The notes under the pieces: model-generated
Told to the model about the DNA's origin: nothing
What the model saw: only the letters and a program-made list of their open reading frames with translations
Databases searched by the model: none
Shown here: in pieces, positions 2,465 to 7,971 of the stretch
Position numbering within the stretch: position 1 is the first letter of the stretch
Layout of the letters: every line of letters begins with the position of its first letter
Position numbers and translations under genes: made by a program
Origin: an uncultured Flavobacteriaceae bacterium
Lineage (GTDB): Bacteria > Bacteroidota > Bacteroidia > Flavobacteriales > Flavobacteriaceae
Assembly (NCBI GenBank): GCA_905479065.1
Contig: CAJQLB010000029.1
Location: 1-64,000, forward strand
Length of the DNA stretch: 64,000 bases
Direction: 5' to 3'

Positions 2465-3433
2465 ATGAATTTTTTTAAAATTATAATGCTGTTTGTTTGT
2501 TTTTTCGTTTTCAATTGTATGTCAAAAGACATCTCAACTGCATCTGATCAAGAATCTGTAGAGTTGGACAAATCGAAGCAATACCTCACTGTTTTGGGTA
2601 TCGCTCAAGATGCAGGTTATCCTCATATTGATTGTTTTAAAGATTGTTGTCAAGTATTTTATGATGGTAATGAGTCAAAAAAGCTCGTGTCTTGTTTAGG
2701 TTTGGTTGATTTAAAGGGTAATAAAAAATACATGTTTGATGCAACACCTAATTTTACAGAACAATCTCGTTACTTAACAGAGTATCATTTAGATAATGGT
2801 CATATCATTGATGGGATATTTTTAACTCATGCTCATATTGGTCATTACACTGGCTTAATGTATTTAGGTTTTGAAGCATTAGGAGCAGAAAAAGTACCTG
2901 TATATATGATGCCGAGAATGAGACAATACATCGAAAACAATGGTCCTTGGAGCCAATTGGTGTCTTATAATAATATCGACATCCATAAAATGAAAAACGA
3001 TTCTGTAATGAGTCTTGACAGTGGCATACAAATTACGCCATTAGTGGTGCCTCATCGTGATGAATTTTCTGAAACGGTTGGATTTAGAATTCAGGGATCT
3101 AAAAAAGCTGCATTATTTATTCCAGATATCGATAAATGGGAGCGTTGGCAGCTTGACATTGTTGAGGAGGTGAAAAAAGTAGATTATGCGTTTTTAGATG
3201 CTTCCTTCTTTAAGGATGGAGAGTTGGATAGAGATATGAGTAGAATTCCACATCCTTTTACAACTGAGACGACTACCTTGTTTGAAAATGAAACTATTGA
3301 AACAAAAAATAAAGTCATATTTATTCATTTTAATCATTCAAATCCAACAATTAGAAAATCACATCATTTAAAAGACAGTATCTTGAATCTCGGCTTTAAA
3401 TTTGCAAAACAAGGGGATGTTTTTAATTTATAA
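2465..3433 (+). CDS. PqqB-like metallo-beta-lactamase-fold lipoprotein
   Basis: A 322-residue MBL-fold hydrolase of unknown substrate. The N-terminus is a lipoprotein signal with Cys18 in the lipobox (VFNC), so it should be anchored in the envelope. The segment LGIAQDAGYPHIDC (residues 44-57), followed by C61 and C62, resembles the N-terminus of PqqB. The metal motif is THAHIGH at 121-127: the two histidines of HxH and the final His are present, but the usual Asp of HxHxDH is Gly. Further candidate ligands are His in VPHRDE and Asp in FIPDID. No other pqq gene is nearby, so a role in pyrroloquinoline quinone synthesis is unlikely. It is followed by icmF, which has its own promoter match. Confidence 0.85.
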   Translation: MNFFKIIMLFVCFFVFNCMSKDISTASDQESVELDKSKQYLTVLGIAQDAGYPHIDCFKDCCQVFYDGNESKKLVSCLGLVDLKGNKKYMFDATPNFTEQSRYLTEYHLDNGHIIDGIFLTHAHIGHYTGLMYLGFEALGAEKVPVYMMPRMRQYIENNGPWSQLVSYNNIDIHKMKNDSVMSLDSGIQITPLVVPHRDEFSETVGFRIQGSKKAALFIPDIDKWERWQLDIVEEVKKVDYAFLDASFFKDGELDRDMSRIPHPFTTETTTLFENETIETKNKVIFIHFNHSNPTIRKSHHLKDSILNLGFKFAKQGDVFNL

Positions 3434-3470: not shown

Positions 3471-3478
3471 TAAATTTG
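3471..3478 (+). promoter_or_regulatory. icmF promoter -7 element, which argues for the ATG start
   Basis: TAAATTTG is an exact match to TAnnTTTG. A TTG that could extend the icmF frame upstream (3476) lies inside this element, so transcription would start after it. This favours the ATG at 3506 as the start codon. Confidence 0.5.
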
Positions 3479-3505
3479 TCACTGATAATAGATAAAAAAT
3501 TACGA

Positions 3506-6500
3506 ATGCATCAAGATTTACCATATAAGCCTAAACATAAAGTTCGTATTGTGACGGCTGCATCCTTATTTGATGGACATGACGCATCAATCAATATCAT
3601 GCGTCGCATTATTCAAGCGACTGGGGTAGAGGTAATACACTTAGGTCATGATAGAAGTGTAGAGGAGGTGGTAAATACAGCAATTCAAGAAGATGCAAAT
3701 GCTATAGCTCTAACATCCTATCAAGGAGGTCATAATGAATATTTTAAATTTATGCTAGACTTACTTAAAGAGCGAGGAGCTGGTCATATAAAAATATTTG
3801 GAGGAGGAGGAGGTGTCATTTTGCCCTCAGAAATCAAAGATTTGATGGATTATGGAATTACTCGTATTTATTCACCTGATGATGGTCGAGAATTAGGCTT
3901 ACAAGGAATGATAAATGATTTAGTTCAGAAATCAGACTTCGCTATTGGGGATGAACTTGATGTAGATATGAATTTATTGACAAAAAAAAGTTCAAATGCC
4001 ATTGCTAGGGTCATATCGTCAGCAGAAAATTTTCCAGAAGTAGCTAAGGCAATGCTGAATAAAATTAGTACTAAAAATAATCATTCGAGAATACCTGTTC
4101 TCGGAATTACAGGAACTGGAGGTGCTGGAAAATCTAGTTTAGTTGATGAGTTAGTTCGACGATTTTTGATAGATTTTCCAGACAAAACGGTTGGAATTGT
4201 ATCAGTTGATCCGTCAAAAAGAAAAACTGGGGGAGCCCTTTTGGGAGACAGGATACGAATGAATGCCATAAATTCTTCTAGGGTTTATATGCGCAGTTTG
4301 GCGACGCGACAGTCTAATCTTGCTTTATCAAAATATGTTCATCAAGCAGTTGATGTACTAAAAGCAGCAGAATATGACCTCATTATTTTAGAGACTTCGG
4401 GAATAGGTCAAAGTGATACTGAAATTATTGAGCATAGTGATGTTTCTCTATATGTAATGACACCAGAATTTGGAGCAGCTACTCAATTAGAGAAAATTGA
4501 TATGCTTGATTTTGCAGATTTAGTAGCGATTAATAAGTTTGACAAAAGAGGCTCCCTCGATGCCTTACGTGATGTCAAAAAGCAATATATGCGTAATAAC
4601 AATCTTTGGGATGTTGAACAAAGTGATTTACCCGTATTTGGCACCATCGCTTCACAATTTAATGATCCTGGTATGAATACCTTATATCGGGCAGTTGTAC
4701 ACAAATTAGAGGAAGTTTCCGACTCAGATTTTACATCGACCTACGAAATATCAAAAGGAACAAGTGAAAAGATTTTTGTGATACCTCCTGCACGAATACG
4801 TTACTTGTCTGAAATTTCTGAAGCAAACCGTTCATACAATCAAGATGTTATTTATCAGTCAGAAATAGCACAGAGGCTTTATGGGATTTATTTAACCATG
4901 CAATCAATTTTTAATGGGCCGTTAGAGTTAGATGCGGCAGGTATTCATTGGGAAAAAGGGCTTTCGTCTGATGATAATAAAGATTTTTTAAAATTACTTG
5001 CAAGCGAATTTGATAGGGTAAAGTTAAACTTAGATCCCTACAACTGGGAAATAATTATAAACTGGGGTCTTAAACTTCAAACATATAAAACTTCAAACTA
5101 TACTTTTAAAGTAAGAGGCAAGGAGATTAATATTCCTACGCATACAGAATCGTTATCTCACTTACAAATTCCTAAAATAGCATTGCCAAAGTATCAAGCT
5201 TGGGGGGATATTTTAACCTGGGTTTTGAAAGAAAATGTCCCTGGAGAATTTCCTTTTACATCCGGGTTATATCCGTTTAAACGAGTTGGTGAAGATCCTG
5301 CTAGAATGTTTGCAGGAGAAGGTAGTCCAGAGCGAACAAATCGTCGATTTCATTATGTAAGCCGAGGGTTGCCAGCGAAACGTTTATCGACAGCTTTTGA
5401 TAGTGTTACTCTCTACGGTAATGACCCTAATCATCGACCAGATATTTATGGTAAGATAGGTAATGCAGGAGTCTCCGTTTGCTGTTTAGATGATGCGAAA
5501 AAGTTGTACTCAGGATTTGATTTAGCCAGTAATATGACTTCGGTGAGCATGACAATTAATGGTCCTGCTCCTATGATTCTTGCGTTCTTTTTAAATGCAG
5601 CCATTGATCAACAATGCGAAATTTACATAAAAGAAAATAACTTAGTTAAAGACACAGAACGTCAAATTAACGACATCTATAAAGGTAAGGAGCGGCCAAA
5701 ATATCATGGAGATTTGCCCAAGGGAAACAATGGTTTAGGTTTATTACTTTTGGGGGTTACTGGAGATCAGATATTACCAAAGAAGATTTATCATGATATC
5801 AAAATTAAAACGATAGCCCAAGTTAGAGGTACTGTTCAAGCTGATATTTTAAAAGAAGATCAAGCTCAGAATACATGTATTTTTTCAACAGAATTTGCCT
5901 TGAGGTTAATGGGTGATGTCCAAGAATATTTTATTAATAACAATATTCGAAATTTTTATTCTGTGTCAATTTCAGGATATCATATCGCTGAGGCCGGCGC
6001 GAATCCAATTACACAACTCGCTTTGACACTTTCTAATGGATTTACTTATGTAGAATATTATTTAAGTAGAGGCATGGATATTAATAAATTTGGACCAAAT
6101 TTATCATTCTTTTTTTCAAATGGTATTGATGCCGAATATGCTGTAATCGGTCGTGTAGCTAGAAAGATTTGGTCAAAGGCAATGAAATATAAATATGGAG
6201 CAAACAAACGGGCACAAATGCTGAAATATCATATTCAGACTTCAGGACGGAGTTTGCATGCTCAGGAAATTGATTTTAATGATATCCGCACAACTTTGCA
6301 GGCTTTATACGCCATATATGATAATTGTAACTCACTACATACCAATGCTTATGATGAGGCAATCACAACACCTACTGAGGAGTCAGTGCGTCGTGCGATG
6401 GCTATTCAGTTAATAATCAACAAAGAACTAGGTTTAAATAAAAATGAGAATCCCATTCAGGGGTCTTTTATAATTGAAGAATTAACGGATTTAGTAGAAG

Positions 6501-6919
6501 AAGCTGTCTTATTAGAATTTGATAGAATTACAGAAAGAGGAGGTGTATTAGGAGCTATGGAGACTATGTACCAACGAAGTAAAATACAAGAAGAAAGCTT
6601 GTACTATGAAACCTTAAAGCATAACGGTAAATTCCCAATTATTGGTGTGAATACATTTTTGAGTTCAAAGGGATCGCCTACCATTTTGCCCGCAGAGGTA
6701 ATTCGCGCTACTGAGGAAGAGAAACAGCTTCAGATAAAAACTTTACAGAACTTACATCAGATAAATAACACCGAGTCTTTGTTACAAGATCTCAAATCGA
6801 AGGCAATTGATAATGATAATATTTTTGAAGTCCTTATGGAGGTTTGTAAGAAATGTTCTCTTGGTCAAATAACAAATGCGTTATTTGAAGTAGGAGGTCA
6901 GTATAGACGAAACATGTAA
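3506..6919 (+). CDS. icmF: Fused acyl-CoA mutase with G-protein chaperone (IcmF type)
   Basis: IcmF is an adenosylcobalamin-dependent mutase interconverting isobutyryl-CoA and n-butyryl-CoA (or related acyl-CoAs). Three parts lie in the fixed IcmF order. First is a B12-binding domain with DGHDAS at about residues 23-28, giving the cobalt-ligating His, followed by a glycine-rich GGGGG loop. A MeaB-like GTPase comes next, with Walker A GTGGAGKS near 203-210 and an NKFD base motif. The mutase barrel occupies the C-terminal half, with the segment [11 protein letters not shown] typical of IcmF. The 1137-residue length fits the family. A TTG 30 nt upstream is less likely to be the start because it falls in the -7 element. 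A helicase-like gene follows after 10 nt, so the two probably share a transcript. Confidence 0.95.
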
Positions 6920-6929
6920 TTTTTTTCAG

Positions 6930-7538
6930 ATGTCTTTTAAAAAATTAAATACAGTAATCACCGAAAGATTGGCTCAATTAGGTTTTGAAGAACCCTTGTC
7001 GTTTCAGAAATCAATGTTGCCTAAACTTAAAGGAGGTGCTAGCATTTATGCAATCTCACCCAGAGGATCCGGCAAAACGACTGCCTTAATTATCTATACA
7101 ATTCATAAATTAGGTAGAGAAATTATCGGCGATTCGCCTCGAGCTTTAATCATGGTCAAAAACAAGGAAGCAGCATTAACTTTGAAAGAGCAATTTGAAG
7201 TCTTTACAAAAAATACGGATTTGAGACTCTATTGTGCCTACGAGGAATATGATATAGATAAACAAAGAGATGATATTTATTATGGTGTAGATATTTTAAT
7301 TGTTACGCCAAAACGGCTTAATAAATTATATTATTTAAATAGTTTACATCTGGGGGAATTAAAATTATTCGCGATAGAGGATGCAGAATTTTTGATAAGA
7401 GATAATATTAATGACCATGTTCATCGAGTGACGGAGAGTATACAGAAATGTCAATACGTCATATGTGCAGAAATCATGCACAATAGATATGAACGCTTAA
7501 AAATAAGCTTCATGCACAACGCGTTACTTATAAGCTGA
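6930..7538 (+). CDS. Single-domain DEAD/DEAH-box helicase-like protein
   Basis: A 202-residue protein equal to only the first RecA-like domain of a DEAD-box RNA helicase. Visible are a Q-motif region (GFEEPLSFQK, residues 18-27), Walker A SPRGSGKTT at 43-51, motif Ib-like TPKRL at 126-130 and a motif II position reading EDAEF at 150-154 instead of DEAD. The SAT motif is not recognisable and there is no second RecA domain, so normal ATP-driven unwinding is unlikely. The reading frame is clean and well conserved in character, so it looks like a maintained gene, not a fresh pseudogene. It starts 10 nt after icmF. A role as an RNA- or nucleotide-binding accessory factor is possible but speculative. 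Confidence 0.85.
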   Translation: MSFKKLNTVITERLAQLGFEEPLSFQKSMLPKLKGGASIYAISPRGSGKTTALIIYTIHKLGREIIGDSPRALIMVKNKEAALTLKEQFEVFTKNTDLRLYCAYEEYDIDKQRDDIYYGVDILIVTPKRLNKLYYLNSLHLGELKLFAIEDAEFLIRDNINDHVHRVTESIQKCQYVICAEIMHNRYERLKISFMHNALLIS

Positions 7539-7575: not shown

Positions 7576-7971
7576 TTATAAAGTTAGTGTCCAAGCATGT
7601 TGAATTTGTTTAAATAAATTTAATTCTTTTCTAAGTACTGGGATAAAATCTTTACCATTGCTATGAGTACGCTCTAGACGTGAACAATTTTTCATGAGTA
7701 GATTTATGAGATGTTCTAAACTGTGAGCATGTTTGTGTCTGTTCTCCGAAAACACCTCACTTTCTGCTTTAATTATTTCAGGAACCAAAGATTTTGATTG
7801 TTGAATAATATCACCTGTAAAATAAATAGAATTATCCTCTTTACCGTCTTGCTTCAAATAATTAAGATCAGGTATAAAATATAACGATATACGGCGCGAT
7901 AAAAATAATATTTCTAGAGCTTTTTGATACACGGGTAAATTTGGTAAATGGGATGGGATTGAGGAATACAT
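7576..7971 (-). CDS. Hypothetical helical protein, possibly four-helix-bundle type
   Basis: A 131-residue soluble protein with no signal peptide or membrane segment. The start (LPVYQKALEILFLSRRIS) loosely resembles the beginning of S23/four-helix-bundle proteins, and the rest can be read as further amphipathic helices, including a His-rich stretch (HKHAHSLEHL). It is convergent with the helicase-like gene, with 37 nt between stops. The family assignment is weak; the coding call rests on protein-like composition and an uninterrupted frame. Confidence 0.7.
   Translation of the reverse strand: MYSSIPSHLPNLPVYQKALEILFLSRRISLYFIPDLNYLKQDGKEDNSIYFTGDIIQQSKSLVPEIIKAESEVFSENRHKHAHSLEHLINLLMKNCSRLERTHSNGKDFIPVLRKELNLFKQIQHAWTLTL

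Follow-up and report, generated by a model that had tools for sequence, protein, structure and literature searches.

A gene of 202 codons lying directly downstream of icmF in an uncultured Flavobacteriaceae bacterium is best explained as encoding a pseudohelicase, that is, a non-catalytic binding module derived from a DEAD-box protein; judged from its sequence and that of its relatives, we put the probability of this reading as a whole at roughly 80%. The product would be a lone first RecA domain (RecA1) descended from a two-domain DEAD-box protein, in which catalysis was apparently lost before the second domain (RecA2).

The gene and its product

The window, meaning the whole 64,000-nt stretch of DNA that was analysed, contains at 6930-7538 on the forward strand an intact open reading frame (ORF) that starts with ATG and encodes 202 aa with a computed pI of 8.6. 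It begins 10 nt after the stop codon of icmF, which ends at 6919 and was identified by NCBIfam model NF045497 with a score of 1726.7 bits, the cut-off being 1500, so that a preliminary description of this DNA was right about both the spacing and the upstream gene; an ORF on the opposite strand comes after it. Pfam DEAD (PF00270) matched residues 25-175 of the product (E = 1.3e-17), and the Pfam scan gave no Helicase_C match on the 202 residues at E ≤ 0.001. The P-loop (SPRGSGKT) is intact, the motif II position reads EDAE and SAT is replaced. The same description had claimed a first RecA domain only, with an intact Walker A motif and EDAE at motif II, and this was borne out by Pfam and by the motif reading: the protein consists of RecA1 alone, its length leaving the second RecA domain no room. 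Scores against the NCBIfam helicase models were far under their cut-offs (64.1 bits against 750 for RhlE1). Since none of the PADLOC anti-phage families matched the protein at E ≤ 0.001, a known defence gene was rejected. The features referred to below are as follows.

3476..6919, forward strand: icmF, fused isobutyryl-CoA mutase/GTPase, a context gene only (NCBIfam; the listed TTG start is mechanical)
6930..7538, forward strand: putative pseudohelicase gene derived from a DEAD-box protein, with RecA1 as its sole domain, 202 aa (ORF, Pfam, orthologues, AlphaFold2 model)
7005..7007, forward strand: Gln26 of the Q motif, which we take to be the adenine-recognition position, kept in 69/69 one-domain rows
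7029..7031, forward strand: Lys34, a derived residue found in 68/69 one-domain proteins, 0/6 two-domain relatives and 0/15 canonical helicases
7056..7082, forward strand: motif I (Walker A), SPRGSGKTT, intact (alignment)
7242..7247, forward strand: position of the GG motif, presumably RNA-contacting, here Glu-Glu (alignment)
7305..7316, forward strand: motif Ib, TPKR for the canonical TPGR, largely kept (alignment)
7377..7388, forward strand: position of motif II, EDAE for DEAD, with the catalytic Glu replaced by Asp (alignment)
7467..7475, forward strand: position of motif III, AEI for SAT (alignment)

The best Foldseek match to an AlphaFold2 model of the protein (mean pLDDT 88.0, pTM 0.87) was the N-terminal domain of Hera with AMP (2gxs; E = 3.2e-16, TM 0.92), and VIA-align ranked Dbp10 first, with its RecA1 domain, at Z 30.3 and an rmsd of 1.4 over 202 residues. 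The predicted fold is that of a DEAD-box RecA1 domain, a common fold being no proof of function. With bacterial RecA1 domains of the RhlE, CshA or Hera type the protein shares this fold, the Q-motif Gln, the P-loop and the TP of motif Ib, but it differs from them in having no RecA2, Asp for the catalytic Glu, no SAT, a replaced GG and an altered motif Ia. Measured against an active DEAD-box helicase, it therefore has the Q motif and motif I, and is without the two domains, the catalytic Glu and SAT. Helicase activity is not expected of a protein that lacks RecA2, including motifs V and VI, carries Asp for the catalytic Glu and has no SAT; the Asp in motif II could leave slow hydrolysis if a RecA2 were supplied in trans.

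Motifs kept and lost across the one-domain family

One-domain homologues were compared in a set of 69 proteins (186-240 aa), made up of 58 loci (the window and 57 others) and 11 proteins from an order-wide search; among the matches listed in that search, 14 short-frame homologues were chosen, one in the same family and 13 spread over two others of the order, and 11 of these were used. Residue 1 was excluded from the comparisons, as the first Met was possibly forced on trimmed rows. In DEAD-box proteins the catalytic Glu belongs to motif II and the arginine finger to motif VI, SAT is motif III, and GG and motif Ib are RNA contacts. Counts for the main positions are given below in the order canonical rows (15), two-domain sister proteins (6), one-domain proteins with a P-loop (62) and one-domain proteins without it (7).

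Q-motif Gln: 15/15, 6/6, 62/62, 7/7
P-loop Lys: 15/15, 6/6, 62/62, 0/7
Catalytic Glu of motif II: 15/15, 0/6, 2/62, 0/7
First Gly of GG: 15/15, 1/6, 0/62, 0/7
Second Gly of GG: 15/15, 2/6, 1/62, 7/7
Thr of motif Ib (T126): 15/15, 5/6, 61/62, 7/7
Arg of motif Ib (R129): 15/15, 6/6, 42/62, 6/7

The catalytic Glu is thus lost in 67 of the 69 one-domain members and replaced by Asp in 59, and SAT is found whole in 0/69. EDAE itself, singled out in the preliminary description, is not a conserved motif, being present in exactly that form in just 22/69 homologues. GKT or GKS is kept in every P-loop-bearing member (62/62) and in 0/7 of the others. Ser170 occurs in 63/69 one-domain proteins and 6/6 two-domain sisters, and in 0/15 canonical rows. 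Nucleotide or RNA binding had been proposed for the protein at the outset. The first is plausible from the sequences, given the Gln and the GKT or GKS in 62/62 members, whereas there is reason to doubt that RNA binds in the usual groove, since the first Gly of GG is acidic in 58/62 and motif Ia is altered.

Direct binding of RNA in that groove is nonetheless a live rival, if a rather unlikely one. It would have a nucleotide-bound RecA1 grip single-stranded RNA through motif Ib and serve as an RNA chaperone or as a competitor of helicases. Such a role is consistent with motif Ib in the P-loop-bearing members, where in addition to T126 and R129, P127 is found in 59/62 and Lys at position 128 in 46/62, with the second Gly of GG in all seven P-loop-less proteins, and with the basic pI of the window protein. 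The GG position speaks against it, as neither Gly is maintained in the P-loop-bearing members and position 105, that of the first, is Asp or Glu in 58/62. So do the loss of Pro-Thr from motif Ia (Pro in 2/62, Thr in 4/62), the missing second domain that would close over the RNA, and a pI of 4.4-5.4 in 10/62 P-loop-bearing members.

The seven proteins that have lost the P-loop come from one family of the order. Their branch has low dN/dS values (NG86 0.032-0.038, YN00 0.046-0.071, in three pairs sharing rows), and a model of one member has the same RecA1 fold (pLDDT 91.2), with the Hera N-terminal domain again the best match. The function selected in this branch is probably not an ATP cycle, and that one branch shed its P-loop suggests that what is conserved in the family is binding and not a cycle of ATP use.

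Probable origin from two-domain relatives

The 69 one-domain proteins formed one clade in a tree of 90 rows (support 100/98). The clade was recovered at 99/94, with the bootstrap not settled, when 42 motif columns were left out, so shared decay of the motifs is not what drives it. Its sister group (100/99; 99/96 without the motif columns) consisted of six two-domain proteins of 436-484 aa (L115-L118, L122, L123) from another family of the same class. Two more proteins of that family (L199, L203) and one of a further family (L206), all outside the tree, bring the two-domain proteins read to nine; a tenth row, L201, was left out as the wrong ORF. Catalytic Glu, SAT and HRIGRTGR are lost in 9/9 of these and kept in 3/3 canonical relatives. 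A degenerate Helicase_C was matched at the right place in five of the six sisters scanned (E 2.4e-8 to 6.3e-4), in three of the six over the Pfam cut-off.

With the one-domain family the sisters have in common the loss of the catalytic Glu and SAT, Ser170 and a basic residue at 157; they differ from it in retaining a degenerate RecA2 and in having neither Lys34 nor the acidic GG position. They look like pseudohelicases as well, and we know of no name for the group. Since they are already without the catalytic Glu, SAT and motif VI, catalysis was apparently lost before the second domain. Five genomes (G300, G375, G414, G428, G548) carry, in addition to the two-domain pseudohelicase, a second homologue that is of ordinary length and less similar, suggesting a duplication. 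The simplest order of events would be duplication, loss of catalysis and loss of RecA2; that the two-domain group decayed in parallel after the split is a less simple alternative. We give an even chance to the fuller picture of a lineage in Bacteroidota-type bacteria stripped stepwise, with every stage extant and conserved, from an active two-domain helicase through a non-catalytic two-domain protein and a nucleotide-binding RecA1 to a RecA1 without P-loop, the function residing wholly in the RecA1 surface and needing no ATP. A family with living two-domain, one-domain and P-loop-less proteins amounts to a natural experiment that could show which portion of a DEAD-box protein remains of use once ATP is no longer hydrolysed.

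In the pseudohelicase reading, the window protein has most likely retained the ability to bind ATP or ADP, by way of the intact P-loop and the Gln of the Q motif. The domain, whether nucleotide-bound or not, would act as a non-catalytic adaptor that docks on a protein or ribonucleoprotein partner, and the docking surface held by selection may comprise the TP-[K]-R region of motif Ib together with the derived residues Lys34, Phe89 and Ser170; one branch would later have shed the P-loop entirely. As a guess from ancestry, and at somewhat less than even odds, the partner might belong to RNA metabolism, for example in ribosome assembly or in the regulation of an active DEAD-box helicase.

Gene neighbourhood and linkage to icmF

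Neighbouring genes were taken from uncurated longest-ORF calls, with about 3-8 kb of upstream sequence read. At the 58 one-domain loci no gene was a constant neighbour across clades. Immediately upstream and in the same orientation lay a YceI-like gene in eight loci, a sigma-54-type activator in seven, icmF in five and a member of the sigma-70 family in three, and a few gene clusters, among them c73, c143 and c24, were seen occasionally near both one-domain loci and two-domain relatives, at no constant place. A constant operon partner was rejected, as no neighbour held a constant place in the 58 loci. A sigma-70 family (ECF-like) gene of ~180 aa lies close by in 5/58 loci (L069, L071, L073, L076, L081), in three of them as the next gene upstream and in two on the downstream side.

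icmF was near the one-domain gene in 12/58 loci, upstream and on the same strand in all 12 and immediately adjoining in five, and within the 3-8 kb of upstream sequence read it was not near in 46/58. Of these 12 loci, eleven belong to a single subclade of 12 rows, which had SH-aLRT 98 in a quick tree and reappeared without additional rows in both careful trees; the twelfth (L090) lies outside it, so the arrangement arose mainly once. The pairing proposed as a sign of common function does recur, but in these 12 of the 58 loci, and recurrent linkage across independent lineages was not found among the 58. Across genomes, icmF was present in 76/94 of those with the gene, a tally made by hand from the genome match listings, and in 142/205 of those without it (p = 0.037 by Fisher's test, with no correction for kinship), which is at best a weak association; in 18/94 genomes with the gene there was no icmF match at E ≤ 1e-100. 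Within the genus of the window, one congener (G835) has icmF followed by the one-domain gene after 89 nt. A second (G197, a draft 93% complete) has the gene and no icmF, only a mutase relative that is 34% identical, and in a third (G834, a draft 90% complete) icmF is followed by different genes and the one-domain gene has no match; both absences are uncertain, because the drafts are incomplete and the site in G834 is split over contigs.

The preliminary description had linked the protein to the mutase, and as an accessory of IcmF it would bind nucleotide or RNA and modulate either the mutase or the GTPase chaperone of the mutase, and the adjacency of the genes would follow from this. The 10-nt spacing in the window, the similar order in the congener, the uniform upstream position of icmF with one case outside the main subclade, and the weak co-occurrence are what such a role would predict. 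It is made highly improbable by the 46 loci in which icmF is not near and by a linkage that mostly arose once, and the two genes also occur apart, in the 18 genomes that have the gene but gave no icmF match, in the 142 where icmF alone was matched and, so far as incomplete drafts tell, in G197 and G834. The link to the mutase was accordingly found unsupported and the accessory role was rejected. From their spacing, icmF and the pseudohelicase gene may be co-transcribed in the window, which is a matter of synteny and not evidence of joint function; researchers working on IcmF should read no function into this neighbour.

In G834 (L194, contig C29, 110-6277), the place after icmF that the pseudohelicase gene occupies in the window is taken by a pair resembling an Xre/RES-type toxin-antitoxin, a 1287-aa Cas9-like ORF and a small toxin-antitoxin-like pair (names from ORF reading).

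Candidate partners supplying a second domain

The invariance of the P-loop and the Q-motif Gln in all 62 P-loop-bearing members would also suit a split helicase, in which this RecA1 completes an ATPase in trans with the RecA2 of another protein. In four of the 58 loci (L104, L106, L125, L126), all in one nine-row subclade, one or two genes for full-length DEAD-box proteins (437-450 aa) occur on the opposite strand at a distance of 0.9-6.3 kb, which is a weak lead and not a link. In the window's genome, however, no gene for RecA2 only was found, all 15 of its Helicase_C matches (E ≤ 0.01) lying in frames of at least 433 aa, and among the Helicase_C matches listed for ten other genomes the frames were at least 373 aa with one exception, an open frame of 260 aa (G220:C1:2723839-2724147, E = 1.5e-9). 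A RecA2-only partner was rejected on these frame lengths. Together with the loss of the catalytic Glu in 67/69 and of SAT in 69/69 members, and with a branch that has no P-loop, they leave a split helicase very unlikely.

Distribution and selection

Matches to the window protein at E ≤ 1e-20 were found in 94 of 299 genomes of the same family, a recurrence well past what chance would give. Among the matches listed, none had an internal stop and the open frames were 203-242 aa, at a threshold beneath which badly decayed copies would fall; a match in G157 was flagged with a stop where the profile match extends onto the gene's own terminal stop. The order-wide profile search extended the one-domain form to two more families, and in a phylum sample the frames among the matches listed outside the family were at least 383 aa. 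The patchy presence, 94/299 at the threshold used, implies that the function is dispensable in many relatives. In genus g128, four members (L108, L111, L113, L114) have an Asp/Glu-rich C-terminal tail, which two others (L109, L110) and the window protein do not have.

Of 15 homologue pairs, 12 yielded an NG86 estimate of dN/dS, with values of 0.032-0.122, and YN00 gave 0.014-0.071 in the five of them on which that method ran. Three pairs gave no estimate, among them both with the window protein, which were saturated at synonymous sites, and dS by NG86 exceeded 1 in nine of the 12 estimated pairs; the values are rough for these reasons and still far below 1. Judged from these comparisons, relatives of the window protein are under purifying selection.

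Selection for a role other than unwinding, as first suggested for this gene, is supported by the near-constant length across the family, the low dN/dS, the loss of the catalytic Glu and SAT in nearly all or all members, the missing second domain, and a genome in which no RecA2-only gene was found. No decayed copy was seen in relatives among the matches at E ≤ 1e-20, and at none of the loci read does a full-length helicase replace the gene. The word remnant used in the preliminary description is therefore wrong for a family so old and constrained. A decaying piece of a helicase gene, still open by chance in this genome, would account for helicase homology with half of the protein missing, but is refuted by near-constant length, open frames, low dN/dS and a single ancient origin of the one-domain form, and can be dismissed.

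Relation to known pseudohelicases

Pseudohelicases are a known, small category, of which a 2022 paper (PMC9539457) counts only two proposed members; the term pseudo-helicase also appears in PMC4490356. According to the former paper, Utp25 of the yeast small-subunit processome is a pseudohelicase whose helicase fold is conserved while its DEAD-box motifs are vestigial, maintained in the absence of catalysis, and a role as helicase cofactor is offered there as one option for it. Utp25 resembles the one-domain family in its degenerate motifs and retained helicase fold, the latter being present in the predicted models of both the window protein and the P-loop-less member. It differs in being eukaryotic, in having two RecA domains and in being essential by experiment (same source, in part), whereas the family described here is bacterial, one-domain and known from sequence.

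The Pfam DEAD cut-off was exceeded by far by the window protein and by two of three other one-domain members scanned, and was passed by the third as well. These proteins are therefore likely to be labelled helicases, though their sequences argue against RNA unwinding.

PriA is a DNA replication-restart protein, which belongs to another helicase group and is not one-domain. That of Deinococcus radiodurans is termed the first identified pseudohelicase in the same paper (PMC9539457) and, like the window family, is a bacterial relative of helicases; its ATPase is described there as negligible, with partners still bound. Among the papers listed by searches of open-licence PMC text, none dealt with a bacterial pseudohelicase of one domain, and none paired icmF with a helicase. 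Nor did those listings contain a bacterial one-domain family whose sister group is a two-domain pseudohelicase, as the sequences appear to define here.

Other genes near the locus

Upstream of icmF, the gene at 2465-3433 on the forward strand encodes a PqqB-like protein of the metallo-beta-lactamase fold, which scored 81.7 bits and thus well under the PqqB cut-off of 245. On the reverse strand, a 131-aa ORF without Pfam or NCBIfam match (7576-7971) adjoins the gene for an AsnC-type regulator, and its cluster is present in 10/58 homologue neighbourhoods.
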